Shown here: positions 35,501 through 64,000 of the stretch, piece after piece
Layout: each line of letters begins with the position of its first letter
How positions within the stretch are numbered: position 1 is the stretch's first letter
DNA from: Tribonema minus
Taxonomy: Eukaryota > Sar > Xanthophyceae > Tribonematales > Tribonemataceae
Assembly (NCBI GenBank): GCA_017506865.1
Contig: JAFCMP010000031.1
Location: 310,001 to 374,000 of the forward strand
Length of the DNA stretch: 64,000 bases
Direction: 5' to 3'
Notes under the pieces: model-generated
Database searches by the model: none
Told to the model about the DNA's origin: nothing
Seen by the model: only the letters and a program-made list of their open reading frames with translations
Made by a program: the position numbers and the translations under genes

Positions 35501-38500
35501 TCACATCATCGCTTGCCTGCCGCGAGTGACAGTCATCCCCGCTGGGGGGGTGGCAGAGGCGGCGGGGCCGGCGGCGGGGGAGGGACAGGGGGTGGGGGGG
35601 ACAGCGGATAGCGAGCAGGGCTCTGGAGAATGCGCAGCTGGCACCGCCGCTGCCGATACAAGCGGTGCGGCGTCAGCAGCTCCGGCGTACGGCATGTTCG
35701 ACGTGACGCTGCGCATGCGCAAGGGCGAGGGCCTCGGCGTCAAGCTCAAATTCGGCAACCGCATGGTCGTCGTACAAGCGTTCACGCGCGCGGAGGACGG
35801 TGGCATGCTTGCTGCCGAGGCATCAGAGCTTGTAGCCATTGGCGACATCATCACTGCCATAGATGGTTGCACTCTGCAAGGGCTGCCGCAGAGCACAGCA
35901 GAGCGGGTGCTCAAGGCTGCTCGCAAAGCAAGCCCTATGCAGAACACACTTACTCTGCGGAATGGTAAGGAGGGGGGGGGTGGGGCGGGCACAAGTGCGC
36001 AGCAAATGGTGGCTGATGTACCTCTTCCATCAAATCCTGCAGCGCCTGGCCGGCCACAATGCTTACGTGTCGCCATTGCAGCTGCCAATGCTGTATTCCG
36101 CAACACCAACCCTAGGTGGCTGCGTCCTTCCTCAGCCCAGGCAGCAGCTTGCGTCACCACTAGTGCTGGTCAGCAGGTAGCACTGGCCAAAGTGTTGGCT
36201 CTTGCTGCAATGCACTATGCTGCTGGCACAGATGTCACTCAACACGCATTCGACGGTGATTGGGCAGGGGCAGCAGCATTAGATGAGCCATTGCAGACTA
36301 ATGTTGAGAAGGCTCATGCTGAGGTATGGGCGATTGCCAAGACCATTGTCGCAGACGCTAAGTCATTGCCACCACAGCAGGCAGTAGACAAAATGAGGTA
36401 TCTGGCTGAGGTAATGCGCGACATGGTTGCTGGCAATGTCCATGACCCTTTTGTCAGGAAACGGCGTACGCAGAACACGGTGGGAAAACGCATTAAGGGC
36501 AGCACAGGCGGAGCCCGCAAGAAGCCCAAATCGTAGACATCAGCAGCCAGTTGTGATGCCTAATGTGTGTTTAAATCACAAGATTATTCATGATGCATGT
36601 TGAAGTTCTACTGCTCCTGCTTTCGGCGTTCAGATCACACATCCTGACAACTTTATGCATGTACAAAAGTAAGCCGCTTGCAAGCATACATTGCGTTGTC
36701 ATCTGCTGTGTAAGGTCAGCCTTGTCCTGCATAGTGAAAACTAAAGCCGCTCTGCTATTGTGACCGTGCTGCGGTGAGCCGCTTCACCTACTCTTGTAAT
36801 GCAGATAATGACATGTCATGCTAGTACTTGTAAAGCAGAGTATGTATGCTTGTCTAGTGCTGTTGTTGCAACACGACATAACAGTGCATGGCATCTTGAG
36901 CGACGGATGATGACTTCACGAGCCAAGTGTTGTCAAGCTGGCTCTGCCAGAGCCACCTGATGTCGAATTCTGACAAAGTCATCTACCTTTATAATTTTTG
37001 CATACAGACCTGGATTGCAATTCCATGGCATGTGCTTGCCAGCTATATGGCATGTCTTTTGACATCAGGTTCACGAGGACAACTCCAAGGTGCGTGCATG
37101 TACATGTGCCTGATGTACTGTTGATGCTTCACCACTGACAGGACCACAACTCAAACATGATGCATGCATGCATGTGTGTTCACACTAAGGTCATGCGCGT
37201 AGGATCACAGCACCAACTGTAATGCGAGAAATACTGAAAGATGATCGAATCAGGTGTAGCAGAGCACCCGTTCTCCAAACAACCTGCTGAACGGGCATGC
37301 ACCCTCTCTTGCAGCCGCCTGTGCGTGTATGTGATGTTGGCCTCACAGTTTGAAACCGGTCAAGTGTGTCGCAAATTGAAATGGTAACACAAACTAATAC
37401 TCAACACGGGGACGCACAACTCAGAAATGCATTTGTGCAGAAAAGAAAAGAAAGAGGGGCATTGATGAGGTGCCTGTTGTAAAAAACGGTGTGCCTTGAC
37501 ATAACAGTGCGTGTGTACACATCTGGGCGCAATGCGCAAATCCGCTGTGCTGTAATCGCACGTTGCAGGTGGTATAAGTACTTGGGCGGATGGTTGCCTG
37601 GCACCATGCAGAATATGCAGCTGCAAAACACGCCATCTTGCTGCTGGAATCTCCACGACATCTGCGACGTCAGATAGAGATAACATCGATCAGGTAATTT
37701 GCTAAATGATCATGGTTCCTGCTTGCAGCACACGAATACTGATAATGCTACGAACCTGAAACACTCTAAAATCAGGCTGTGTGCTGGTGCTCGTATGGAA
37801 AGGACGCAGTTTGTGCCTGCAGCGTACTTGTACCACCTTCACTAGCACAGACCGCAGAGGTTCAGGACTTGTGCATCAGTCACAGAAAAACATCTCATCC
37901 GCAGCATACTCACATCAGGGGCCAGTGATGCCCTCTTCGCAAGCAGCGGCCATGCATGCACGCACCTCATGCTAACTAGATCAACAGCAGCAGTTGAATA
38001 GCCTGATCATTTCAACAGCATGAATTTGATGGTCAGGACAAGGCATCGATTGCAATGCATATATCATGACAGCAACTACTGCTGAATCATAACCCTTGCA
38101 GTTGAGCTGTATTGATGGGCATAGCATAATGCTTATCCACCCTGCACTTCTGCAGGTGCATAAATCAAGCTCACCATTTGCAATGATGCCTTCAGCATGC
38201 GCAACATAAGCAACACCTGCCAGTGTTTATAATACACACAGGACAAAGGCTCCGGATAACTAACTTTGCAAGCAACATGAGCAGTTTCAAAACCACCTGC
38301 CTGTCTTGGAGCCAAGCATATAGCCAGGCCTGCTCGCTGCAAGTGGCGCACACCAGCTGCTTGGTACTAGGGCGATTTGACAGTTCGTGAGGGTGCCTGC
38401 AGCTGTGCCTCGCTTGGAGCCGATCTCAGATGGTGGGCCTGCATAAGATTGCAATAGGATGGCCGTGAGGTGATAATGCGAACATGTTTTGAACACTGCA

Positions 38501-48509: not shown

Positions 48510-51500
48510 TTACGCCTGGGGCGGCGGCTGCGGCGGCATGGGCAGTCCGTCTTCGCTGTGCTGCAATTTCCAGCTCCTGCTTGTGGAGCCGTGCGGCAGC
48601 GGCGGCTCAATCTCCAGAGGCCGTGGCCGCGCCGTCACCGACGCGTGGCGTAACATGGACGCAAGCATGACCGCGGTGCCCGCCGTGGCCAGCGCAATAT
48701 TAAACCACAGCAGACCGTAGGCGACGGGATCGTAGACCGCAACGAAGCGCAGCGACACGAGGCCCACGATGGAATAATCTCCGAAGCCGCTAGCCTGCGC
48801 GCTGACCCACGTCATCTGGCTGACGCCACCGTCGGCATTGCCGGCGCGCGCCGCCTGTTCGGACGCCAGCAGCAGGACAGGCGGCAGTAGGACTGCGGAC
48901 GCGCAGATGAGCGCCGTCACAGCGTGTGCCGCCAGCACCCCGACGCGGCGCCCAAATGCCGCGCGGCTGAGCACGCGTAGCAGGTCCTTGCGCCCTGTAT
49001 ACGTCGCCAGCAGCGCCACGATTGTGAAGACAACGTTGACCAGGGCGCCGTAGAGTGCGGTCGTCGTGTCGGTGACTGCGAGCTCTGCCGCAACGCGCTG
49101 AGCCAGCAGCGTTTCCGCCATCTGCACCACCGTCTCCACACCCGCCTGCAGTGACGGCCCCGTGGCGCGTCCGTAGCTCACAATGCTTGTGCCTGCTTTG
49201 GTGATGGTGTCGGACCGCGTCATGTTGCCCCAGCTGGCCTGCGCAGGGAGACAAGAACATTAGGTCATTCTTGTGTTGCAAGACTCTCCCCTCAGGTCAA
49301 GGTACATGTGACTACTAGACAGAACGCGGGCTCTGTGTCAACACAACAAAAATGCTTTCACTTCACTCCTGAAATTCTTGACCTGAACTCTATGCATTAC
49401 AAAACAGCATTTAAATTACAATAAATGAAATGAGGAGAGAATTATTGTGGGCAATCCCAGGATACTACAAGGCGCAACATCAATGCAATGATCGAGTTGA
49501 AGATTGCACAACCATTTGACCGAACATCAACAGTTCGCTTCAGCTCGCTCTGCGGATGATGGTGCAACCTTCAAACTTCAAATTGGACAAAGTTGACTGG
49601 AGGCGTTACTGTCATTGAAGTATAACTTCAAATTTAACATCAACTGTCCCGCTCAATATCGACCATCATCTTCAATTTGAAGTTTGAAGGTTGCACCATC
49701 GTCTGCAGAGCGAGCTGAAGCGAACTGTTGATGTTCGGTCAAGTGGTTGTGCATCTTCAACTCGATCATTGAATAAATGTTCTGTGGTGCCTTCTAGTAT
49801 CCGGGGATTTCCCCCAATGATTCTCTCCTAATCATTGCAATCTCAGCCTCTTCGAATGCTCACCTGCATAAAAGTCCCCAGCATGGCTGGTCCGGAAAGC
49901 GCCGGCGGCCTCGCCGCCACAGTGACTGCCGCAGTGCGAGCCGGCGACAGCGGTTCTGAGATCTTGCCCCAGCCGAGGCGCTCCCACGTGGCGCAGTCAT
50001 TGGCCGGCAGCACGGCCCCGGAGTCATCGGGTGCCTGCACGTAGGGGACGGCGGTGATTCCATATGGGTGGGCGCCGCCACCGCCACACCATGGCAGATC
50101 CTCAGCCGCGCCGGAGGACGCCAGGGATGCCAGCACCAGCAAGGATGTCGCGGCCAGCGGGCGGACCTGCGATTCTTCGCCATCCATGTAGTAGTGCCCG
50201 TGATGATCGGCGTCGGGACCGGACAATCGCATCTCCGTGATGTCGAGCGCCACGATGCTGGCGCGTCGCAGGGTGAGCACCACGTTGCCGAGATCAGCCT
50301 TTGTGAGGTCCCCAATGTCGTCAGGCCAGCACTGATCCACGGTCGTGCATTCGAATGCCTGTTCTTTGTTTACGACGGAGTCGCCGCATGTAAGCCTGCG
50401 GCCAATTTGGCACATGGAGGGGTCGGACCATCCACCCCAGCTAGAAAAGATCTGCTGCCCAGACTGATCACGAGCCTTGAACGTGTACTCACCACTATTG
50501 CTATCGGGGTGCTTTGCGAGCACTACCGGGGGGAATTGCAGGTACGCCTGCACCAGATACGAGTTGAATATATAGGTACGTGTCGAGATGCAGTCAGCAG
50601 ACTGGTTCCACCCCTGGGCGTCCATCCAGGGGTGCACAAAAGTGACGATCGTGACGCAGGCACCGTCCGCAGTTATATAGTTGCCCGCGCGCAGCCCACT
50701 CCAGGAGCTGTTGCCAAGAGCCGTTAACGACCGCGCTAACGCGCCAAACTCCATGAGGATGGGGCTGGCGTCTACAACGGTGGCGTCGTCCGCCATCTCC
50801 CACGTCACTTGCTGGACCGTGACGGTTGAGCGCGCCAAGGGGGAGAGTGCGCTGGTGAGCGGCGTCGCGATGCCAGCAGCGCTGGTGCTCAGGAACCCTG
50901 TCGACACTCCTGCACGTGTCAACACCAGCACGGGAGACCAAGAACCGTTTCGGTCTGAAGATGCATCATGGCAGGCAACAGAACACGTGGCATGCCACTG
51001 GACGATGAGCACGAACGAGTGTGGTGGACGTGACAAGTTGATGTCGGTGAGTGCCGTCACAGTAACTTACTTGAGGGCTCAAACTGTTGTACAGCCTTCT
51101 CATATGAGAGGCAGGGCCGCGTGCATCCGCTCGTCACCTGTGAGGGTGTTCGCAAAGCGGGCGTAGCCCATCGCAAGGGTGCCGGCAACCGTCGGCGCAG
51201 GCTGAGCATCCGCCGCAGCGTCCGCCGGTGGGCTGATGTAGGCCAAGTCCACCACCACGTCACAATTTTCGTTGACGCACAAGAAGAGGTCCACCTGCTC
51301 GTCATTTTAAGATTCAATCAAGCGATTGCACTGTCAGAGCTCACGATGATAGCTGACTGGGAAGAGGGCAAGCAAGTGTCCGACTGAGTCAGTGGCGATC
51401 ACGTCATTATATGCCACGCGCTGCCTGCACCATTATATGAACGAGAAAGAGCGGCAATTACCATGATATAACATAGTTCTGTCTCAGCATCATCGCGCTG

Positions 51501-52107: not shown

Positions 52108-52560
52108 GGCGCTGCCACACTGCCACAGTTAAGCTAGCCGAGACTGAGGCTCTGAGAGTGACTGAGAGTCTGAGAGTCTGAGAGTCTCGGAGTGACTGAG
52201 TGAGTCTGAGACCAGGGTTGGCACGCTAGGCCCTAGCGGGGTCGCTGACACCTCATTAGCCCTAAGCACGTACTAGTAATTAGGGGTCATTTCATTAGGC
52301 CTAATTTGGGGCTGCTGAGAAAAAATCAGCAAAGATGCATGCAGGGCATGACAGCTGAAACAAAACTGACCATGAAAGCCTTAATTTGCATGTAATTCTT
52401 GAATGACGATGTTATATGAATAAGCCACGCTCAAACACCCCCTCGTCAGCTACAAACTTCATCGAGGGTGCCGATGATGACTGTGATAATGGCCCAAGGG
52501 GGGCGCTGCAAGTCACGGTCGTGCGGCCTTGCGTGAAAGACTCGAATGCTGCTAGCTGAG
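52108..52560. promoter_or_regulatory. Upstream region of the membrane-protein gene with CTGAGAGT repeats
   Basis: About 450 bp between the 783-aa gene's ATG and the LTR retrotransposon. At 52147-52211 GAGTCTGAGAGT/GAGTGACTGAG units repeat about six times in the probable promoter or 5' UTR. Then come TTAGGCCTAA-type palindromes (near 52293) and AT-rich DNA. The retrotransposon inserted upstream of this gene. Confidence 0.5.
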
Positions 52561-52637
52561 TGATACAAGTTCTCTGTTTTATGCTACAAGTAGCATGAAA
52601 TGCCAGGAGCTCTGGAAGGGGGAGACCGTTCTCTGGA
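52561..52637 (+). repeat. Left LTR, start (end not resolved)
   Basis: These 77 bases match the right LTR exactly, and the LTR continues to the right. Its 3' end and a tRNA-complementary site somewhere before about 53670 could not be fixed without the full right LTR. Confidence 0.9.
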
Positions 52638-53673
52638 CCGGTACTTCAACTTCAAGCCCTGTGCCAGCAACTAGGAGGAAGGCTTTTTTTTGCTTCAACA
52701 ACAAGTGCTCAAGGCACCTACAAGGCAAGCAACAAGAGGCCATCCTGGCTGGGAGACAGCAAGACCTCTGGAGCTGAGCCATATCCATTGGGCTCACTCT
52801 CCTTCTTCAGTCATGTCTACACAGGTGTGTGTTTGTTTGCCCCACTGATGTTTGCCCTGCAAGTTGGTTGCACTTTGATGTCACTAGCAGCTCAGCAGCT
52901 CTATTGCTCAAGAACATAGACTCCAGGCTGCTTTGCTGTATCATGGCTCAGCTCCACTTGCCGGCGACAACATCGGTGCTAGACTTTGAAGACTCTGTCG
53001 ATTACTCCGACACAGTTTAATGCCGTGCACTTAGGCCACGAAGGTGTTCTGAAGTACTGCGTCCGCGACGGGGTCGCGCTGGCGGTGCAACAGACACATA
53101 GGGACGCTGCTATGTACTTAGACTGCCCAGCGTCTATCAGTTGCTCGCATGCTATGGCAAGTCCGTGCTGTTTAGTCCTGCAGACGACAGCATGCGATCA
53201 ACGAAGCTCACGGTGTTTCCCTTCCAGCACACGGCTGCTAGGCACAACTGGCTGTACTGTCAGACTAGGTGCTCCAGCTACTTTGAGGAATCCGTGAGCA
53301 TGGACACGCAACCATGCAACAGCGTTTTCCGTCAGTTAGTGTGAGCGCCGCTAACTGATTCGTGCACCTCGGCACAATGTTGCGTGCAGCGTGAAAACTC
53401 ATGTATGCAACGGGACTGATCACCCCGACGCATTTTGAGTTGACAATGTGGAGTTGTCCACACGCTGGCTAGACTCGCCTAGGCCGACCCTGGCACGCTT
53501 TTTCAAGTGGAAAGGGGAATTATCGGCTTCTGCATAACCTCTGAGCAGATTGCATAAACTTTGAGCACTTTGAAAATCTTGAGCGCTCTGGCACGCCGTC
53601 GACGCGCACATTTTGAGCGTTTGCCCGCTCTACACAGAAGTGCGTACTAGCGACGAGTTGCCAACTTTGTCGT

Positions 53674-54325
53674 GTGTCTCAGGGAGGAAGTGCTATCCAC
53701 ACTGGCAACGCCGAACAGCCTGCGACGGCCTTAGCCTCCGTTGGGGAAACGGGTGGCGCGGGAACCGGCGGTGAGAGTAGCGGTGGCGGTGCGGATCCGC
53801 AGGCACAGCCCCCCCCTGTGCACCCTGTGTCGGCGCCTCCTGCCGATCAGGGCGGCATGTCGGCTGCGGTCGCCTCGACCCCTGCGAGCGCTGGGACTGC
53901 ACCGACTGCCACTCCGCCTGTCACTGCCGCTCAAGCTCAAGGTCCCCCGCGTCCTCCAGAAACCTGCCGGTCGCGACATCCGCCGCACCTGCCCCGGCTT
54001 CCGGTGATGGTCGAGAGCAGATGGACGACATTGTTCGAGGACTTCGCGCTGCTCTCCCCGCTATTAGCGACGAGGCTCTGCGCCGTGCTGCAGAGCGCGT
54101 GAGCGCTTCGGTGCGTCCAGCTACTAGCACCACTGCTAGCCTCGACCCAGCCATCCTCTTCAGCGCCGGCACCGCTGCAACTCCACGCGCCGCCGCCGTC
54201 CCCCCGACCTCTTCTGACGACGTTGAGCGCGTCGCCCGCGGCATCGAGGTCGAGCTTGGCCAGCGCATTACCCAAGATGACGCTGCTCGTGACAAAGCCA
54301 AGCGCGACACTCTAGCCGCGGACGA
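53674..54325 (+). pseudogene. Gag N-terminal region, frameshifted
   Basis: Pro/Ala/Gly-rich Gag head. The frame from 53674 opens at a GTG preceded by TCAG rather than an ATG, so a spliced leader or upstream start is possible. It breaks at about 53942, where a C-run is one base shorter than in the inverted copy at 54316-54807. After the break the Gag sequence continues in another frame from 54021 (MDDIVRGLRAALPAIS). The inverted copy retains the uninterrupted frame, so this copy carries a one-base deletion (or a homopolymer sequencing error). Confidence 0.7.
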
Positions 54326-54807
54326 CGCGCTCAACGTCGTCAGAAGAGGTCGGGGGGACGGCGGCGGCGCGTGGAGTTGCAGCGGTGCCGGCGCTGAAGA
54401 GGATGGCTGGGTCGAGGCTAGCAGTGGTGCTAGTAGCTGGACGCACCGAAGCGCTCACGCGCTCTGCAGCACGGCGCAGAGCCTCGTCGCTAATAGCGGG
54501 GAGAGCAGCGCGAAGTCCTCGAACAATGTCGTCCATCTGCTCTCGACCATCACCGGAAGCCGGGGCAGGTGCGGCGGATGTCGCGACCGGCAGATTTCCG
54601 GAGGACGCGGGGGGACCTTGAGCTTGAGCGGCAGTGACAGGCGGAGTGGCAGTCGGTGCAGTCCCAGCGCTCGCAGGGGTCGAGGCGACCGCAGCCGACA
54701 TGCCGCCCTGATCGGCAGGAGGCGCCGACACAGGGTGCACAGGGGGGGGCTGTGCCTGCGGATCCGCACCGCCACCGCTACTCTCACCGCCGGTTCCCGC
54801 GCCACCC
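53751..54807. repeat. Inverted duplication of about 490 bp inside gag
   Basis: 53751-54242 reappears reverse-complemented at about 54316-54807 with a few substitutions and a 1-bp indel. The turn-around point lies at CCGCGG palindromes. A direct repeat of about 39 bp starting CTCGTGACAAAGCCAAGCGC occurs before (about 54286) and after (54808) the inverted arm. This is the signature of a double template switch, in reverse transcription or replication. Confidence 0.9.
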
Positions 54808-57800
54808 TCGTGACAAAGCCAAGCGCGACACTCTAGCCGCGGACGCCAAGATCAAGGAGCTGTACGAGGAGCGCGAGCGGCGTCCTCTGCCTACTGCCCA
54901 CGCCACGCCCCTGCAGCTAGCCATCGAGGCCGAAGCTGACGCCGACTGGCGCTCGCGCATCGAGGCGGAGCGTCACCGCCGCGCCCTGCGCGCATCGGAC
55001 CTGCGGCGTCACGCGGACCGCGTCGAGCGGTACCGCCGCATTCGAGATTACTTTGATGCGGCGCGCCGCGCCGGACCGGCGGCGCTGGCGCACTTTGTCA
55101 ACTTCACCGCGCCGACGCTCTTCACCGAAGCTGCCCAGCGCACCCAAGAGGAGCAGCTTCGCGCAATGCCCGTGGGCTATCCCGGGGCGGACCTACTCGC
55201 GCCCACCGCTAGCCACAGCTATGCCCCCGCGCCTACTAGCAGTAGCGGCCTTTTCGCCAACGTCATCAACCCCGCGCGCGCGCCGTTCGAGGGCGCAGCG
55301 CCACTCGCCGCGCCTGCAGCTGCCGCCACTGCGAGCTCTAGCCACCATGAAGACGTGAGCTGGCAGAAGTTCTTCAACCCTACGGCGCTCCCCATTCCCT
55401 TCCGCCCCGGCGCAACCGAGACGACGCGCCGCCATTTCGAGCAGGCGGCCCACTACAACAGTGTCCCCTACGACAAGTGGGACTTCGCTCTGCGCCGTTG
55501 CCTGACCGCGGATCAGCAAGACCAGCTCATCATCGCGCACAAGGACCCTGTTACGGGACTGGAGCGCGTTCAGGGCTGCGGTTCCATGAACTACGAGGAG
55601 CTTTGGGCGGCGATCGCCAAGCGCTTCGACAACGCAGCTCACCGCGCCGAGGCGATGATGGAGATCACTGACCTCGTCTGGCAGCCAGACTGGACGCCAC
55701 GCCAGTTTGCCGACGAGCTACTCCATGCTGCGGAGCGCGCCGGACCCGAGGGCGCGGTCGTCGACGTCACCATGCTCAAGACGCACTTCTCCAACCGCAT
55801 GACGCAGCCCCTTCGCCAAGACTTCCGCAAGGAGCGCCTTATACTTGAAGACTGGAACGCCATGGTCGACCGCACCGAGGACTTTTACAAAGCCATGCGT
55901 CCCCAACAGCTCGCAGACTTCAAGCGCAACCTCAAAGAGGCAGCTGAGCGGCAGGGCATGGCGCTCGCTATCGTCAACGAGGGCGCCAAGGCCAAGACTA
56001 GCGCCATGCGCGGCAGCGCCGCTATGGACACTTCGGACGAGGGCCACCCTAGGGCTGCGGCGATGGCTCCCGCCAAGCCTGCCAAGCAGCCGGCCAAGCC
56101 CAAGAGCGACAAGGCCAGGGCTTCCAGCAGCGACGAGTGCTTCGGGTGCCACAAGCACTTTGGTGGAGAGAACAAGCTCCGGGAGCACTGCCAAGAGTGC
56201 CCGGAATGGTACGAGCACCGCATCGAGCGCCTGAAGGCCGCCAAGAGGCCCCACGACAAGCTGGAGAAGCGCCGCGACGAGCTGCGCGCCAAGCGCGCCA
56301 AGACAAGTGAGTGTTCGCTCACCGCTTTCCACACCTTGCCTAGTGCACTCATGGATGTTGACGCGCCAGTGCAACTCGGGCACAGCGGTCATTGCACTAG
56401 CTCCACGCAAGATGTGCTAGAAGCGCTAGATGTGCAACCAGCGGCGACTGAGGCCGGCACACAAGTCACTACACGCATGCTTGACAAGACCGTTGGCACT
56501 TGCATGTTAGCCACGTTCTTGTATGCGCATAGTGAGCCAGCAGTACGCGCACTTGACACCAGCGCACCATTGACTGCTCCAGATGCCAGTGACGCTCCAG
56601 CAGTATGCGCACTTGACACTAGCGCACCTTTGACTGTTCTGGGCACCAGTGACACGACCAGTTGCGCGCCGCTTGCAGCGCAAGATGTCACTCATGATGT
56701 TGCCACTCCGCAGCCAGGTAAGACCGACGTTTCTGACTCTGACCCCAGATGCGTTGCACCTGCTTCCACCACTTCGCCCGTGTCATATCCGCAGACTAAG
56801 GAGGCGTCTGATGCCGACGCGGGGCGTTCGGACAGAAGGCGGCTGCGGGTGGCAGAGTTGTGCTGTGGAATAGGGGGTGTACATAGGGGGTTGCAGGAAT
56901 TCGCACGTGCAGCAGACGTTGACGTGCAGGTGGTCTTAGCGGTAGACAACTGCAAGCGTACATGTGAGGAGTACAGCAAACTCTTCCCTGACACCGAGGT
57001 CATATGTGCAGATGTATCTAGCCCCCAAGTTCGCGAGAGGCTCAAGCACCTCAAGCCAGACGCGATTTGGAATACATCTTCTTGTGTTGAGTTTTCCCCT
57101 GCGGGAATGGGGATTGAAGGCGATGCAGCACGCACGCTTGTACATGTTGCAGAGATTGCTGCCGATTGCCTGCCAGCTCTAGTCATCAACGAAAACGTGC
57201 CTAGGATGCTCCTATCAAGCTCATGGCGTGACTTCTGCCGCGTCGTGGGTACAAAGGGGTACTCCACCTATGAGGTGCAGTTTCGTGGGACCGACGTTAA
57301 TGGTGCATCTTCACGCGAGCGCGTCTATACTGTGTCAGCTGCAAATGCTGCTCGGTTGCCTGAACGATTTGCACGCTTGAATGCAATTCTCAATGAGCGC
57401 TTTCGCACCAGCAAGCCACGTACGGTCCGTGAACATCTTGGTTGCTCCCATGACACGATTTATTGGGACCCGAGGCAACCCACGACGCAAGGCGTGCTGT
57501 CTACTGACATGCCGCTCCCTAGCCCTGTTACTCGCCAGCCTGGGCGGGGCCCCTCCTCGTCTTATCAGCCACGTGAGAAAGACGCAGGACCAGTTAATAA
57601 GGCCCTTGTCTTGACTGTTGATCAGGTCATGAACTTGCTGGGCTACTTTGAGCCACATCCTTCCGGGACTGTCACTCAGATGAAGCGCTGGGCTGCAAAC
57701 TTAGTGCAACCCAATTGCGTGTCAGCGCTCATGCTTGCCTTGCACGCGGTTGCTGCCTTGCCGGAGGAATGGCCAAGCCCTCGCGATGCTACTGGCGTCT

Positions 57801-59362
57801 TACCAGGTGAGGTTGTAGTGCATGATCGCACTTCTCCCCCGCCAGAATGGATGGTAGACTCCAGCCCTGATCTGCCTGTAATACTGCGCCTAGCTAGTAC
57901 TTGCGTGCGGAACTTCCAGCGTTTTACACGCAATATAGGCCAAGCCATACTTGCATCATTTCGGCCTGGAAGTGATGCACCGGTTTCGCAGACGCCTTGG
58001 ACGTACGGTGAAGATGAGGAAGAGCCTTTGACTCCTCATGCTTCTCATGCGCCGCATGTCGAGACGCCACGTGCTGTTGCAATGCGAGAAATGAGCGACA
58101 CTGACAGCGATGCAGATGCTCAGCAGCCTAGTGCTAGTAGCATTGCTACCGATGTTTTCAAGGCTCAACCCAGGCGCATAGCGCGTGACAAGCCTCCCAA
58201 GATTCTACATAGGGCACGTGCAGTCGGCAGACCTAAGAAGAATGGCTTTGTGCACATGCCAATATGCACACAAGTTGGTAACGGCATACAAGAACTGGTA
58301 CTTGACGCGCTAGTGGATAACGGCGCCGAGGCCGAATTCATTAACACAGAACGCGCACACCAGTTGCCGCCGGGTTCAATTTGCCCGCTCTCCGAGGGTG
58401 ATTTTACCACGGTTGAACTTGCAGACGCCAAGAAGTCTGTGCCAATTTCAGGTGTAGTGCACGCCCAGGTGCGCTTCAAAGACACCATATTCACACACGC
58501 TTTTTACGTGGTGGACCTGCCTTACGAGGCAATCTTGGGGTCACATTTCTTTGGCAAATTTGGCTCGTCCATCACCTATGAACATGGCATGCGATTCCAC
58601 CCCGCTGGATCCGCTGGACCTGCCGTTGCCATGCATGAACAAGCTAAGTTGGGGACTCTAGACCCCCCAGCTGCCAACACGATCAAGGTGGGTGTTACAA
58701 GAGCCAAGTCTTCTCAGAGGCCCACTTTGCCTAGTCGCACTTATTTGCTGCGTACAACGTGTGACCAGGTGCTTAAAGCTGACACCGCTAAAACCATTGA
58801 AGTAGTGTCACATCCACCAGTACAGTGCACAGGCCCTGTTGAAGTGCTACTCACCCCTGACGCGCCAGAGGCGTCAGTGATGGCAAACAGGCTGGCCACC
58901 AGAGGTGCCGTTCTCATGGATACGGTGGGCTTTGTAGCACCTAACAAGCCACTAGGGATGTTAGTCGAGAACACTTCCACTGCGCCAGTGTTTGTGCCTA
59001 GAGGTGCAGTGCTAGGCGTCATTGAGGCCCCTGACATGATCTGCAGCCTAGACATTGGCAAAGAGGAGCTTGTGGCTAACTTGACAAGAATTGCGTTGAG
59101 ACACCTTGGGCAAAACGCACCAGATACACCTGCTGTAAACAGATCAAGGCCTGTGCAGCAGCCAGACCCCTCGTGTGTGCCAGAACACGACTCGCCAAGA
59201 CCAGACCCTGCCATGCGCGCTGAGGCGGAACGAGCCGCATTCAGACACAAGGTGGCAGAGGAGCACAATGCCTCGCTGGGAACTTGCACAGACGAGGAGC
59301 TACGTGAAGTGCTGTGTGACAAGAACGGGGAGATCTTCAACATCCTCAAGCAACGCGATTGA
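54808..59362 (+). CDS. Gag capsid, zinc finger, C5-cytosine DNA methyltransferase and protease polyprotein
   Basis: The open frame runs from 54656, but its first 50 codons are antisense to the inverted arm; genuine Gag resumes at 54808. Residues below count from 54656. Capsid-like segment about 230-420; C2HC zinc finger C-x2-C-x12-H-x3-C about 494-516, not the usual CCHC knuckle; methyltransferase about 730-1025: motif I VAELCCGIGG (732), motif IV SSCVEFSPAG with catalytic Cys about 810 (canonical Pro before Cys is Ser), motif VI ENV (846), motif VIII SRERVYTV, motif IX LTVDQVMNLLGY, motif X-like AANLVQPN; aspartic protease with active-site DNG (Asp 1221; usually DSG/DTG) and ILGSHFF. The methyltransferase would transfer methyl groups from S-adenosylmethionine to cytosine C5. 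Two imperfect repeats containing ALDTSAPLT precede it. The frame ends at UGA 59360-59362. Confidence 0.9.
56840..57735 (+). other. C5-cytosine methyltransferase domain
   Basis: Motifs I, IV, VI, VIII, IX and X occur in canonical order, with short spacing between VIII and IX that leaves little room for a target-recognition domain. The catalytic Cys codon is 57083-57085. It is not preceded by chromatin-reader domains as in DNMT1 or DNMT3; the compact form is Dcm-like. Confidence 0.9.
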
Positions 59363-62300
59363 CACGGCGTCACCTATTATGACCGCGCCATGGAGGTGCT
59401 TCGCCGGCGACGAGGCGCCTTTGCCAAGGACCCCAAGAACCCCAAGGTGACGGACCGTTTTGACGTGGACATTGACACAGGCGACGCAGCGCCCATCGCC
59501 GACAGGGCACGCAGGTGGGCTGAATGCGAAGCTAAAATCATATTTGAAGCCATTGAAAATGAGCGCAAACGCGGACAGATCAGACCTGCCAATGGTCCTT
59601 GGGCTAGCAATCCAGTGCTGGTGACTCAGAAGGACAAGGTCCGTTTCTGCGTTGACTATAGGCCGCTCAACAGAGTTACACGCCGTGATGAGTATGGGCT
59701 TGGCAATATGGACGACTTGGTTCAGAAATGCTCGGGCTCACGCATATTCTCGGCACTAGACTTTGCTTCTGGTTACAGGCAAATACCTATGACTAGAGAA
59801 TCAACCTGCAAGACGGCATTCCGGGCACCTGATGGCTCACTCTGGGAGTACAAGGTCGCGCCGTTTGGGTTGGTGTGCCTGCCAAGTATATTCACCAGAT
59901 GCATGCATGAGCTCCTAGGCTCAGCCAGGCAAACGCATGCATGCGTGTACGTTGATGATGTGCTCGTACACAGCAAGAATCTAGAAGACCATATAGCTCA
60001 CTTGGACGATGTACTTCGACGCGTGGAAGAGTACGGCATGAGTGTGTCTAGACACAAGTGCCAACTCTTTGCCGAAGAAGTTACATACCTAGGCCACAAG
60101 GTGGGCAAGTATGGAATCAAGCCATGTGAGGACAAAGTAAAAGCCATGGTCGACATGATGCCACCCGTAGGCAAGGACGGCAAGGTAGATAAACGGCTAA
60201 TGCAAGTCCTCATGGGGTGCTTCAATTACTATAGGCGCTACATACATCGGTTCGCGCATATCGCAGCTCCCCTAGTCGAGTGTACGCGTGATGGCGCTGA
60301 CATGTCGTGGACCAAACGCCGCCAAGAGGCGCTGGCCAAACTCAAGCACGCCATGTCAAACGCTCCTGTGATCATGCACCCAGACTTTGACCTACCTTTT
60401 ATAGTACATACAGACGCAAGCAAGCTAGCCGTTGCTGGTGTTCTATCTCAATTCGTGCCACTAGACAAATTACGTGAACGGCACAAGGACTTCCCCTGGG
60501 CCAGCACGCGCCGTGTCAACACAGTTGACGGCAAACCTGCCAGAGAGGTAGTTGTGGCATTTTTCAGCAAGATTAACTCAGTGCAGGACGCAAAACTTGG
60601 TGCTACTGCACTAGAGTGTCTGGCTGTAGTGCTAGCTTTGAACAACTTCCGCGGTTACATTTGGGGCAGACCTGTAACCGTCGTAACCGACGCGTCTGCG
60701 CTTCGCTGGCTCTTGACCTTGAACAATCACAATAGCAAGCTGCTACATTGGGCCATGCGTCTCCAGGAATACGACATCATGGTCGTACACAGGCCCGGCA
60801 AAGACAATGGCAATGCAGACTGCCCTTCACGCATGCCTCAGATGACGGAGATCATCGGACCTAGGCAGTACGAGCACGCTGACGAGCGGTGGCCCGACTG
60901 CACCGATGCTGGACCTGCACCTCCGTCTGGGGTACGTTTTGATGATGAACAACTGCAAGACTCACCAGCATTTCTAGGCCGCATAGGTGCTTATACGGCA
61001 TGCCTGGGAGGCACGGCTTTTAAATTTAACAAACTTGCACAAATATCTACAAAAGTGAGCAACTGCATGGGTACATTGACACCTCAGGAGGTACATGACC
61101 TCAGTGATACCATGCACGAGAGCGCGTGCGTGCACACCGCGCTTTTTAAAGAAGAGGGAGGTGAACCAGAACTAGAAAACACTCCCCTCGTTTCCATGCT
61201 TTGCAGCATGAAATTGGGCTCGTATTCTGAGCACATTTGGGACAGCTGCGCTGCGATACTCTCGCCGCTTAGAGATGCAACTGCTCCAACCGAAACTAGC
61301 GAAATCACTGACCTTGCCCTTGGAGCTGAAGACGCTGAAGCAGACACTTCAGATGACAATATGTCAACCCAGACTGGAGAGTCTGACTCACGCCTAGAGT
61401 CTTCACCTGCTATGCTGGAACGCAAAAACTTTGTGCGTTGGCAGGAAAGTGACCATTTCTGTTCATCTGTGAAGCACTATCTGGAAACACAAGGCCAGAC
61501 CCCTGACCCTAGCCTTGCCAAATTTGTCAGCCAGAACCAAGAGTTTTTCACAGTTGAACCTGACGGTTTACTCGTGCACTTCATGGCAAGTCGGTCAAAG
61601 AAGGGCACCTTAATTACTCAGTGGGTGGTCCCCGACGCTTTGAAGCCACTTGTGCTCCGTCTTTGCCATGATGATGGCAGTGCTCAACACCCCTCGACCG
61701 CTGCCACGCACGCCAAGGTGCTGGAACGCATGTATTGGAGAGGGTTAGGCGCTGACGTCCGAGACTACGTACGCTCATGCGTCCCTTGTCAACAAACCAA
61801 ACCGCAGTCCACTGCCAGGTACAAGCAAGCACTGATGCCATCTACACACATGTGGCAACGCTTGCATGTGGACTACACCGAAGTCGGCGTCCTTTCCTCA
61901 GAAGGGCATCGATACTTGCTCATCATCACTGAAGCTAGGTCAGGCTACTGTTGGCTTTTCCCCGTAAAGACACGATCAGCAGCTGAGGCCGCACCCCTAC
62001 TGGCAAGAGTGCTCTTTGAGTGCGGCGCGCTTGTGGAAGAGCTGATGTCTGACAGAGCCGCAGAATTCATGAGTGCGCTGATAACCACGCTCTGCACCTT
62101 CTTTAAAGTGCACAAGATTGAAACCAGCGCATATCACCCCCAGTCTAACGGCGTCGTTGAGAACATGAATGGGCGCGTCAAGCGAGCGCTTGCTAGACTC
62201 TGTTCTCGCTACCAGGCACGCTGGCATGTATACCTTGATGCCGTGCAATTTGCGCTCAGGAACACGCCTAGGGAGGAGACGGGTCTGACCCCATTCTTCT

Positions 62301-63670
62301 GTGTTTATGGTCGCGAAGCACGCTTCCCTCTTGACGCTTTGACCTCTGAGGTTGCAAGTCCACAAGACCTACATGCTGAGGTAAAGCGTCTGCAAGAAAA
62401 TCTTAAACTTGCTGAGGAGGCGGTTGGCGAGGCGCTGCAGCAACGTGCTGAGCGCATTCAAGCTCGCAATGACCAAATCCAACGCACTGTACACTTGGAG
62501 GTCGGTGACTATGTGTGGATCAAGAAACCACCTTCACGCGGCCGCGCAAGTGCCATTGAGGAGCATTTCACTGGCCCCTGGAAGCTAGTAGCTCCGTACG
62601 GTGACTCAGGGCTTTCTTTTCAATGCCAACTCATGGGCACGCGCATACGCGAGACCACCGCGCATGTTGAAAACATGAAGCCATATCACCCCAGACCCGC
62701 GCGACTTGACATTGAGGGAGTACATGCCCTCCTGGACTCCGCGCAACTGCAAGAGCTGGACCCTGACCAGCAATTGTGCCAGATACTGGACCGCAGAGCT
62801 GACGAGGACGGCGGCTGGTCATACAAGTGGCTGGCGCGCGACGGCACTACTTCAGAGTGGGTGCGCGAGAAAGAGCTTGTAGAACTGGTGTTCATACCAC
62901 CATGGGTACTGGACACTTTTCATGCTTTGTATGAGCTCAAGCACCAAGGTAACGTTCCCCCATACGCTGAACGTCACCTTCCTCGCGAAGATTGCACGCT
63001 GTCCAAAGATGCTGCATTGCTGCGATACCCTTGCGGCACGCAAGTGGTCCGGCAAGTCAATGATGTGCCGAACTCGACTGACTACTTGTGGGGCCAGGTA
63101 CGTGACTTCGCGCTGTCCCGCTGGCGTGTACGCTACTCTGATGGCACGTGGGAGGACTTAACGTCTTCTCAGGTACGGGCTGCTAAGCTCATGGCCGAAG
63201 GCGTGCGCGACAGACTGCGTAGGTTAGCGCGTCAGCGCAACGAGCCAGAACCTACCTTTGACTCCAGCCTTACGGCTGACCCGCCTGCTAATGTAAGAGT
63301 GACTGTGAGTCCATGCTTGCCAACTGACTTTGGACCACTCTACGTTGGCCAAGTTCTCCGCTACCGGTTCCCTTCCGGATGGAGGCGCGGCGTCTTGCTT
63401 AGGCTTGTGTCCGCCAAGCGCGATCGTGGAGAATTTACTTTTGATGTGGAGTTCCCCAACACGCGAGGACAAAAGCCTCTAGAGAAGCGTTTGAAGCTCA
63501 GAGCCGAATATTACCGTGATGACGCTCGAGCTGAACCTTCATCTTGGAACCTCATGCTGGCACGCGAGCTCGCCGAGGAGCCGCTCAAGGCCGACATACA
63601 AATTGATTTGCCTGCTGCAAGTCACGAGACCGGGGATACTAGACCCCAGAAACGCCTGCGCAAATGTTGA
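59363..63670 (+). CDS. Pol: reverse transcriptase, RNase H, integrase, chromodomain-like tail
   Basis: Same frame as the upstream ORF, separated only by one UGA; open from 59363, first ATG 59390 (1426 aa from there). RT about 60-250 with YVDD at 187-190 (codons 59948-59959); RNase H with HTDASK about 341 and VTDASALRWLL; integrase zinc-binding HHCC (ending CVPCQQ, about 757-804); DDE core: Asp in LHVDYTEVG (about 827), Asp in MSDRAAEF (about 888), Glu in GVVENMNG (about 924); GPF/Y-like module (FTGPWKLV); chromodomain-like segment about 1130-1165 (ILDRR, YKWLARDGTTSEWV). About 230 further residues follow with two segments that read like small beta-barrels (WGQVRDFALSRWRVRYSDG; GQVLRYRFPSGWRRGVLLR). 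All catalytic residues are present, so the element looks competent. Confidence 0.93.
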   Translation, partial: HGVTYYDRAMEVLRRRRGAFAKDPKNPKVTDRFDVDIDTGDAAPIADRARRWAECEAKIIFEAIENERKRGQIRPANGPWASNPVLVTQKDKVRFCVDYRPLNRVTRRDEYGLGNMDDLVQKCSGSRIFSALDFASGYRQIPMTRESTCKTAFRAPDGSLWEYKVAPFGLVCLPSIFTRCMHELLGSARQTHACVYVDDVLVHSKNLEDHIAHLDDVLRRVEEYGMSVSRHKCQLFAEEVTYLGHKVGKYGIKPCEDKVKAMVDMMPPVGKDGKVDKRLMQVLMGCFNYYRRYIHRFAHIAAPLVECTRDGADMSWTKRRQEALAKLKHAMSNAPVIMHPDFDLPFIVHTDASKLAVAGVLSQFVPLDKLRERHKDFPWASTRRVNTVDGKPAREVVVAFFSKINSVQDAKLGATALECLAVVLALNNFRGYIWGRPVTVVTDASALRWLLTLNNHNSKLLHWAMRLQEYDIMVVHRPGKDNGNADCPSRMPQMTEIIGPRQYEHADERWPDCTDAGPAPPSGVRFDDEQLQDSPAFLGRIGAYTACLGGTAFKFNKLAQISTKVSNCMGTLTPQEVHDLSDTMHESACVHTALFKEEGGEPELENTPLVSMLCSMKLGSYSEHIWDSCAAILSPLRDATAPTETSEITDLALGAEDAEADTSDDNMSTQTGESDSRLESSPAMLERKNFVRWQESDHFCSSVKHYLETQGQTPDPSLAKFVSQNQEFFTVEPDGLLVHFMASRSKKGTLITQWVVPDALKPLVLRLCHDDGSAQHPSTAATHAKVLERMYWRGLGADVRDYVRSCVPCQQTKPQSTARYKQALMPSTHMWQRLHVDYTEVGVLSSEGHRYLLIITEARSGYCWLFPVKTRSAAEAAPLLARVLFECGALVEELMSDRAAEFMSALITTLCTFFKVHKIETSAYHPQSNGVVENMNGRVKRALARLCSRYQARWHVYLDAVQFALRNTPREETGLTPFFCVYGREARFPLDALTSEVASPQDLHAEVKRLQENLKLAEEAVGEALQQRAERIQARNDQIQRTVHLEVGDYVWIKKPPSRGRASAIEEHFTGPWKLVAPYGDSGLSFQCQLMGTRIRETTAHVENMKPYHPRPARLDIEGVHALLDSAQLQELDPDQQLCQILDRRADEDGGWSYKWLARDGTTSEWVREKELVELVFIPPWVLDTFHALYELKHQGNVPPYAERHLPREDCTLSKDAALLRYPCGTQVVRQVNDVPNSTDYLWGQVRDFALSRWRVRYSDGTWEDLTSSQVRAAKLMAEGVRDRLRRLARQRNEPEPTFDSSLTADPPANVRVTVSPCLPTDFGPLYVGQVLRYRFPSGWRRGVLLRLVSAKRDRGEFTFDVEFPNTRGQKPLEKRLKLRAEYYRDDARAEPSSWNLMLARELAEEPLKADIQIDLPAASHETGDTRPQKRLRKC

Positions 63671-63923
63671 ATCGCGTTGAACTCGCACGCGTGGTGCGAA
63701 GGAGCGGTGAAGCATCGGTGTTGACCCTGAAGCCGTGTTGAGCTCACGCGCTTGGCGTGAAGGAACGGTGAACGGTGACGCACCCTAAACCTAGACAAGA
63801 CAAGAACCTGGCTATGATGCGACAGAGCAGGCGGATTGCTGAATATCAAGTATCATAAAACGTCGACTTCCGCGCACCAGTCTAGTGGGCGCCGCGGACG
63901 GCGGCCCTTTCAAAGAAGAGGGA
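63671..63923 (+). other. Retrotransposon 3' untranslated region and polypurine tract
   Basis: Contains two near-repeats (TTGAACTCGCACGCGTGG.. and TTGAGCTCACGCGCTTGG.., each followed by CGAAGGA/TGAAGGA and CGGTGA). It ends in AAAGAAGAGGGA, the plus-strand primer site. Confidence 0.8.
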
Positions 63924-64000
63924 TGATACAAGTTCTCTGTTTTATGCTACAAGTAGCATGAAATGCCAGGAGCTCTGGAAGGGGGAGACCGTTCTCTGGA
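63924..64000 (+). repeat. Right LTR, start (cut by window end)
   Basis: Starts TGATACAAG immediately after a purine tract and is identical to 52561-52637. Confidence 0.93.

Follow-up and report, generated by a model that had tools for sequence, protein, structure and literature searches.

A Ty3/Gypsy retrotransposon of Tribonema minus carries an in-frame C5 cytosine methyltransferase domain and a CpG-poor LTR

Structure of the element

The window, the whole 64,000-nt stretch that was analysed, contains a Ty3/Gypsy LTR retrotransposon with an in-frame C5 cytosine methyltransferase (MTase) domain (Table 1). The element shows the order PR-RT-RNase H-IN, a pair of 383-bp LTRs differing by one mismatch and a 4-bp target-site duplication (TSD), although the PR match is weak and the integrase core falls just below its cut-off (PF00665, 29.7 bits against 32.6). 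In ORF2, the RT, RNase H and integrase zinc domains all scored above their Pfam cut-offs. The stop-to-stop ORF1 frame (1574 aa) includes a Gag finger C-x2-C-x12-H-x3-C, of sequence CFGCHKHFGGENKLREHCQEC, which gave no Pfam match and was recognised by its pattern alone; it differs from the retroviral CCHC knuckle. An earlier note on this DNA had proposed a Ty3/Gypsy element with the MTase lying in frame between the Gag zinc finger and the protease, and the PF00145, RT, RNase H and integrase matches bear this out.

Table 1. Features of the window element (positions in the window)
Feature	Position	Strand	Basis or remark
Target-site duplication TGAG	52557..52560	+	edge inferred from terminal inverted repeats; partner past 3′ LTR, outside window
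5′ LTR, TGATACA...TGTATCA, 383 bp	52561..52943	+	repeat comparison; genome matches
PBS-like stretch, starts TGG	52944..52961	+	inference
Inverted duplication in gag	53751..54807	.	only in window copy
ORF1 frame: gag, zinc finger, MTase, protease	54638..59362	+	premature stop 59360-59362 ends frame
C2HC zinc finger of Gag	56138..56200	+	pattern match
C5 cytosine MTase domain, residues 734-1045	56837..57772	+	PF00145 737-927; C-terminal border from family B alignment
Catalytic Cys816, motif IV, Ser before it instead of Pro	57083..57085	+	
Aspartic protease-like domain, D-N-G	58238..58597	+	Pfam E 0.055, under cut-off
ORF2 frame: Pol	59363..63670	+	
Reverse transcriptase, YVDD	59633..60103	+	PF00078 2.6e-32
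RNase H	60383..60772	+	PF17917 1.8e-22
Integrase zinc-binding and core domains	61628..62140	+	PF17921 2.5e-17; PF00665 8.2e-07, just under cut-off
Chromodomain/Tudor-like C-terminus, weak	63080..63178	+	PF21743 E 0.016, under cut-off
Polypurine tract AAAGAAGAGGGA	63912..63923	+	
3′ LTR, cut off by window end	63924..64000	+	runs on to C31:374306

The same note had described the element as young and complete in its Pol residues. This holds for Pol and for the nearly identical LTRs, but the window copy is damaged, with an inverted duplication in gag and a premature stop. The duplication consists of two arm pairs, 53751-53948/54610-54807 (100% identity) and 53944-54260/54297-54613 (97%). This gag arrangement was absent from the available sequence of the 19 other copies inspected, 18 of which match that part of gag, L002 being cut by a contig end and L012 having a different small rearrangement. 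Likewise, the stop is missing from the 18 of these 19 copies that show the site, where L009 carries a frameshift.

Motifs and class of the MTase domain

PF00145 matched the domain with an E value of 5.3e-15 (56.1 bits, cut-off 22). In the usual numbering, the C5-MTase motifs read I LCCGIGG, IV SSCVEFS, VI ENV, VIII SSRERVY and X AANLVQP. The motif set had been called complete; motifs I, IV, VI and VIII are indeed present, but motif X is degenerate and motif IV carries Ser-Cys rather than Pro-Cys. In the family of the window element (family A, 20 loci compared), Ser-Cys occurs at 19 loci and was not found in L016. Families B, C, D, E, F, G and J have Pro-Cys and family I Asn-Cys. The catalytic Cys, ENV and RxR are unchanged in all 13 aligned domains (11 from elements, 2 free-standing).

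The Ser-Cys motif could weaken or redirect activity. The absence of the proline in two families (Ser in A, Asn in I), together with the degenerate motif X, would even fit a loss of catalysis, with the domain kept in Gag-Pol to bind SAM or nucleic acid. We consider this improbable, since a scaffold need not retain all of the Cys, ENV and RxR that stay constant in 13 of 13 domains, and since codon change in the domain is mainly synonymous (see below).

A single-sequence search of solved structures matched, at E values up to 0.01, DNMT2 tRNA methyltransferases only (3.3e-08). In a profile search DNMT2 was again best (1.1e-14), and the DNA enzyme M.HhaI was also recovered (2e-10). DNMT3 chains, which we presume the structure library includes, gave no match at E up to 0.01, 0.1 or 1, and the DNMT3 motif SPCN is absent from the window domain. 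Judged by chain similarity and SPCN, the domain thus does not appear to qualify as a DNMT3. Whether it was the same enzyme as in the published Gypsy and DIRS cases had been left open; those are DNMT3, of which no chain matched here, so it is not. The hallmark of DNMT2 is the motif CFT, and this is absent from the window domain as well. In the tree, the host DNMT2-like row clusters with P0007 and P0009, apart from the window domain. By motif and clade, the domain does not appear to be a DNMT2 either.

The DNMT2 structures at the top of both searches raise the question of whether the family A enzyme methylates RNA instead of DNA, its substrate in the particle being either the tRNA primer or the genomic RNA. 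This seems unlikely to us given the missing CFT, the Pro-Cys retained in the related families B, C and D, and the match to M.HhaI. Precedents exist in the available text of two reports: Schizosaccharomyces pombe Pmt1 also has Ser-Cys (PSCQ) and is active on tRNA C38 (PMC5372726), and de Mendoza et al. suggest RNA for SymbioLINE-Dnmt (PMC5890265).

Copies of family A and selection on the domain

Besides the window copy, 12 copies carry the domain in frame; they lie on 12 other contigs and are 98-99% identical over almost all of ORF1; nine of the 12 are near-identical across 4.5 kb. Six family A copies have Gag-Pol in one frame of 3177-3180 aa. With 40 of 101 candidates scored, the LTR has at least 42 matches in the genome at 98-100%, of which two are partial, and LTR pairs 10.8-11.4 kb apart occur on several contigs (C31, C23, C404, C435, C471 and C525), as in a dispersed, multi-copy LTR retrotransposon. 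Family A is recently active.

The earlier note had called for such a search, and had held that its reading would fail if other copies lacked the domain and this one were a chimeric assembly, or if the domain lacked activity and were under no purifying selection. The inverted duplication of the window copy might indeed raise suspicion of a chimera, or of a passenger domain in a single copy. Chimeric assembly is ruled out by the 12 matching copies elsewhere in the genome, all carrying the domain; with the LTR matches genome-wide and the mainly synonymous changes in the domain, there is next to no chance that either applies.

Relative to L002, the codons that differ in the domain divide into nonsynonymous and synonymous as 1:4 (L012), 6:9 (L013), 3:9 (L015), 4:11 (L016), 2:10 (L017) and 4:13 (L020), corresponding to a dN/dS of about 0.05-0.2 in pairs that all share L002 and involve small numbers. 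Between families A and B, dN is 0.34 in the MTase compared with 0.81 and 0.66 in the flanking linkers, dS being saturated. Neither observation supports an absence of purifying selection in family A. Two family C pairs gave dN/dS of 0.017/0.142 and 0.013/0.067; values were 0.17-0.25 in E, 0.3 in J and about 0.5-0.8 in D and F, for which purifying selection is therefore not claimed.

Two family A loci have a disrupted domain. L016 has a stop inside it, and L019 has frameshifting indels with zero base-substitution codon changes relative to L002 in a base-by-base alignment. The 82% identity obtained for L019 probably stems from these same indels, and its use as a decayed control (dN/dS 0.65) was dropped as an artefact.

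Spread through the genome

The earlier note was right about the type of element and its young family but too narrow in scope. At least 264 MTase places were counted in the genome in addition to four free-standing genes, and the MTase elements examined fall into several deeply split Gypsy lineages with three domain orders, Gag-MT-PR, PR-MT-RT and RH-MT-IN. At least 87 of 108 RT copies of the window element's clade have an MTase 1-7 kb upstream (among the MTases listed). In an RNase H set of 70 members, at least 1 has a listed MTase nearby; Gypsy lineages without MTase perhaps coexist in the genome. A single clade of all element MTases was not rejected (AU p 0.25 and 0.31 in two tests), and our claim therefore concerns the number of positions, not of captures from outside.

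A prokaryotic or viral source was sought for two MTase groups. For group 1, no close source was found in genome_contigs, and the sole match in viral_contigs was a phage Dcm at 26%. For group 2, no close prokaryotic or viral source was found; at least 13 contigs from ENA and JGI carry strong relatives, after which scores fall from 175 to 105 bits (best 120 of 725 matches). Two single-sequence viral queries also returned no close source. As for the host, the genome contains 92 light-harvesting exon matches, indicating a photosynthetic organism, and an rbcL-like nuclear fragment, presumably of red type; the plastid is probably red-type.

CpG content of LTR, body and host

The LTR contains 2 CpG where 23.3 are expected (o/e 0.086), compared with an o/e of 0.94 in the element body and 0.98 in 52 kb of host DNA in the window. 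None of 2609 overlapping 383-bp host windows, 627 GC-matched ones included, had an o/e of 0.2 or less; the reference set consists of host windows and element body alone. TG/CA is not in excess in the LTR (1.51 against 1.59), suggesting avoidance of CpG rather than its decay. At 0.98, the host value does not point to heavy CpG decay in this stretch.

Among copies, transitions affect 21 of 720 CpG positions and 16 of 723 CpA positions, and 24 of the 57 context-assigned C/T transitions between L013 and L002 fall at YpG. The excess is weak and not clear, and CpG hypermutation was dropped as evidence of self-methylation. The earlier note had raised the possibility that the element mutates rivals; CpG decay between its copies is weak.

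Proposed function of the MTase

Retrotransposons are classic targets of cytosine methylation, and an element carrying the enzyme is therefore paradoxical. From the arrangement of the sequence, we propose that the enzyme methylates the element's own new cDNA, to which we give about an even chance. Sitting inside Gag-Pol, the MTase would be packaged in the particle alongside the template, where it could methylate the new double-stranded cDNA ahead of integration. Incoming DNA methylated in this way may resemble methylated host DNA and pass as such before sensors, nucleases and deaminases, and this disguise would be the benefit to the element. The LTR promoter, being almost without CpG, would be spared by this presumably CpG-directed methylation. 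In favour of the proposal we count the in-frame domain shared by many copies, its mainly synonymous change, the constant Cys, ENV and RxR, the many MTase places and the CpG-poor LTR. In the available text of PMC5890265, two SymbioDIRS-Dnmt3 enzymes carry out de novo CG methylation in yeast, whereas the published Gypsy and LINE enzymes had no activity there, a result that its authors call inconclusive.

Several observations speak against cDNA methylation: CpG is not depleted in the element body (0.94 against 0.98), CpG transitions show no clear excess between copies, motif IV departs from Pro-Cys, and there are the domain stop of L016, the domain frameshifts of L019 and the dN/dS of about 0.5-0.8 in families D and F. 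The MTase might instead act mainly on the host or on rivals, its methylation spreading so as to silence competitors or tone down the element itself. Hundreds of copies could have a genome-wide effect, and slower, host-benefiting retrotransposition is an option of de Mendoza et al. (PMC5890265, available text). Fusion to Gag-Pol would, however, restrict the enzyme to particles, and the CpG o/e of the 52 kb of host DNA is 0.98; we regard such a target as quite improbable.

Looking beyond family A, we tentatively suggest, though we think it rather doubtful, that a non-DNMT3 MTase lineage entered Gypsy polyproteins of this one genome on three or more separate occasions, each time at a different place, in elements pairing self-methylation with a CpG-purged promoter. 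If true, this would represent a strategy of methylating the cargo and sparing the promoter, turning a silencing mark of the host into a cloak for cDNA. With hundreds of places encoding related enzymes, in three positions, the genome is well suited to studying why a genome parasite would carry a silencing enzyme. Concrete, testable handles are offered by the scarcity of CpG in the LTR and by the fixed Ser-Cys, and the MTase-free Gypsy lineages, if confirmed, would be natural controls for the enzyme's role.

Comparison with known systems

Our literature search, of partial coverage, found no detailed report of Gypsy elements with a C5 MTase from an alga with a red plastid. The following comparisons refer to the available text of each source. 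The earlier note rightly called MTase capture known but rare: C5-MTase retrotransposons were characterised in 2018 in dinoflagellates and a charophyte (PMC5890265). Stramenopiles, red and green algae and charophytes are stated to harbour Dam- and Dcm-encoding Gypsy and DIRS elements, Dam and Dcm not being separated (PMC6338049), which counts against full novelty. In PMC12344493, DNMT3 is mentioned for Copia and DIRS elements alone. To these cases the Tribonema genome adds a different enzyme, hundreds of MTase places, three Gypsy domain orders and very recent copies.

Two more distant parallels are DIRS elements with a Dam-like MTase (described in PMC5890265), also a DNA MTase in a retrotransposon polyprotein but adenine-specific, of another fold and in a tyrosine recombinase element, and an orchid Ty3/Gypsy with a modification-related domain, which is however an m6A RNA demethylase in a plant (PMC9289625). 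SymbioLINE-Dnmt and SymbioDIRS-Dnmt3 of Symbiodinium (PMC5890265) share with Tribonema the hundreds of copies, the several element types with C5 MTases and the old and young subfamilies. They differ in being LINE and DIRS, not Gypsy, in a dinoflagellate host, and in their enzymes, which are DNMT3 or an orphan class, the latter compared by description only. Closest is KnitGypsy-Dnmt3 of Klebsormidium nitens (PMC5890265), like the window element an LTR Gypsy with an in-frame C5 MTase under purifying selection. It carries DNMT3 in a Pol ORF and has DIRS-like repeats, whereas the window element has no DNMT3 match, ordinary LTRs and its domain between Gag and PR, and the Tribonema genome has two further MTase positions in other lineages.

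Structure and age of the window element

The window lies on contig C31 (JAFCMP010000031.1) of a eukaryotic assembly of 158 Mb in 554 contigs. ORF1 of its LTR retrotransposon encodes a Gag-like part followed by a C2HC finger, a C5 cytosine methyltransferase (MTase; PF00145, E 5.3e-15) and an aspartic protease (PR, weak match), and ORF2 encodes reverse transcriptase (RT), RNase H and integrase (IN), a domain order that assigns the element to Ty3/Gypsy. The LTRs (383 bp, TGATACA...TGTATCA), described in the earlier note as identical over the visible 77 bp, differ at one position over their full length; the TSD is TGAG and a polypurine tract lies 5' of the 3' LTR.

At least 32 genomic matches were obtained with ORF1, near-complete in the window copy and 12 others (best 30 of 1026 candidates scored), and at least 42 with the LTR, at 98-100% identity (best 40 of 101 candidates scored). 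Over 4533 bp, nine copies on nine contigs (L002-L010) share 99.9-100% identity and differ from the window copy by 0.6-0.7%; since several of these contigs are short, duplicated haplotypes are possible among them. The family of the window element (family A) is young, in line with the earlier note's view of the element. The window copy is damaged, with an inverted duplication in gag and a premature stop in ORF1. The arms of this duplication (~1 kb) are 97-100% identical, which leaves it uncertain whether it arose by a simple fold-back in assembly. The gag region concerned is matched in 18 of 19 other copies, none with the window arrangement in the sequence examined, where L002 ends at a contig end and L012 carries a different small rearrangement. 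The stop is absent from all 18 (of 19) other copies showing the site, L009 being frameshifted there, and six family A copies have uninterrupted frames of 3177-3180 aa.

Coordinates of the window element, related loci and side observations
Feature	Position	Observation
LTR retrotransposon	52561-64000 of window, plus 306 bp past window end	LTR pair, TSD, polypurine tract
Family A LTR	52561-52943 of window	CpG-poor
Catalytic Cys	57083-57085 of window	preceded by Ser
Premature stop in ORF1	59360-59362 of window	
Family I-type loci	L060 (C509), C401, C334, C224, C96, C168, C35, C257, C57	MTase between RNase H and integrase; integrase observed in L060 only
Inverted repeat	49505-49753 of window	arms 81 bp, spacer 87 bp
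Open frame	35256-36536 of window	PDZ domain matched weakly (E 0.0006, under the cut-off)
Open frame, 6208 aa	C311:3907-7869	MTase at 39% identity to family C, RT at 59% identity to family A
rbcL-like nuclear fragment (L063)	C334:714136-714324	internal stop; presumably red-type Rubisco by its reading

MTase-bearing elements in the genome

The methyltransferase-bearing retrotransposon of the earlier note was confirmed and proved part of a larger population, in three domain orders. A PF00145 profile search gave at least 123 matches (all 123 scored positive; 378 candidates). Several searches pooled gave at least 268 distinct MTase places on 180 contigs, or at least 264 without four genes judged free-standing (one DNMT2-like), in match lists that may include some places twice, where a copy is broken into pieces over 2.5 kb apart or a contig is duplicated; a further ~16 places were added by eye from another match list. 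L021, L022 and L023 are apparently free-standing, intronless, M.HhaI-like methyltransferase genes that may be of host or of viral origin.

The MTase lies 5' of PR in families A and C (Pfam matches) and between PR and RT in family J, a composite of L061 (MTase) and L059 (RT), loci whose MTases are 99% identical. In family I it stands between RNase H and integrase (Pfam matches, L060). This last order recurs: 9 of the 11 RNase H matches in the corresponding set (sets being a grouping made in this analysis) are followed on the same strand, 133-156 bp downstream, by a family I MTase. Of the 69 RNase H matches in the chromodomain set, at least 61 lie near an MTase place; of the 70 in a different Gypsy set, at least 1 does so among the MTase matches listed, and this second set may not be truly without MTase. 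In the A clade an MTase lies 1-7 kb upstream of at least 87 of 108 RT copies (among the MTase matches listed). The three positions of the domain imply three or more insertions or relocations within Gypsy polyproteins; its capture from outside may have happened once or several times.

RT identity is 90% between families A and B, 57% between A and D, and 28-32% between A and E, F, G, H or J (F joined from two frames). Both MTase trees united F, G and J (group 2), with support of 100/99 and 100/100. Families A-D formed one clade (92/93) in the larger tree; the smaller placed C+D apart from A+B+I, with no A-D clade. Families E and I had no firm placement. Neither tree rejected a common origin of all MTases carried by elements (AU p 0.25, smaller; 0.31, larger).

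Selection and catalytic motif of the MTase

In family A, changes in the domain are mostly synonymous, which speaks against an absence of purifying selection. In a base-by-base alignment of 19 copies with L002, nonsynonymous:synonymous codon differences were 1:2 (L001), 1:4 (L012), 6:9 (L013), 3:9 (L015), 4:11 (L016, with a stop inside the domain), 2:10 (L017) and 4:13 (L020), and the remaining 12 copies had no codon substitutions. dN/dS was ~0.05-0.2 in the six copies that had at least four changes, from small counts and with L002 common to all pairs. L019 (C126), another family A copy, is 99.7% identical in the MTase yet has several frameshifting indels in the domain, either recent decay or assembly errors. 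Pairs in family C (dN/dS 0.017/0.142 and 0.013/0.067), family E (0.035/0.139 and 0.017/0.101) and family J (0.004/0.012) were also compared. We make no claim of selection for families D and F, because their values are 0.5-0.8 and the loci examined have broken Pol frames. Between A and B, where synonymous sites are saturated, the MTase (63% identity) has a dN of 0.34, against 0.81 and 0.66 in the flanking linkers, 0.15 in PR, 0.06 in RT and 0.17 in IN. By this measure its conservation is clearly above that of its surroundings and below that of RT.

Cys, ENV and RxR are kept in 13 of 13 aligned domains. Directly before the catalytic Cys, 19 of 20 family A loci have Ser in place of Pro, as does P0001 (81% identity), a protein encoded on an ENA contig; family I has Asn there, and the remaining families examined have Pro. 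Since S. pombe Pmt1, with its PSCQ motif, is described as active on tRNA (PMC5372726), a Ser at this position alone need not indicate loss of activity.

A CpG-poor LTR and a possible mechanism

The family A LTR has 2 CpG against 23.3 expected (o/e 0.086). Values of 0.2 or less occurred in 0 of 2609 overlapping host windows of LTR length (minimum 0.245), 0 of 530 windows from the element interior (minimum 0.38) and 0 of 6843 windows of other, mostly coding loci, these three kinds of sequence being the controls. Since TG/CA is not elevated in the LTR (1.51 vs 1.59 in GC-matched windows), its composition speaks for avoidance more than decay. The element body and host DNA, unlike the LTR, are not CpG-depleted.

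Beyond the established structure, spread, youth, conservation and motif, the mechanism we propose is unproven: the enzyme would be made within Gag-Pol, packaged as part of it and methylate the cDNA ahead of integration, methylation that the CpG-poor LTR would escape. Less probable alternatives are that the MTase modifies RNA, that its role is not catalytic, or that it acts on the host. Self-methylation of cDNA was proposed by De Mendoza et al. (PMC5890265), who observed CG activity with two DIRS enzymes, whereas their Gypsy and LINE enzymes showed none.

Enzyme class and comparison with known elements

For the METHYLTRANSFERASE class, solved-structure matches were DNMT2, M.HhaI, M.HaeIII and other bacterial enzymes. 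Group 2 had a match to DNMT1 (4e-11); group 1 matched DNMT1 weakly (0.0016), and likewise a chain named Rad8 (0.0094), which we take to be DNMT5. DNMT3 was not among the matches in any solved-structure search with either group, and no close source of the element MTases emerged when bacterial, archaeal and viral contigs were scanned.

MTase-bearing retrotransposons are known as a kind, and the present case is a further variant. The published Gypsy and DIRS elements, as far as described in PMC5890265, carry DNMT3 enzymes, whereas the Tribonema elements carry an MTase without a DNMT3 match; this MTase therefore looks like another enzyme lineage.
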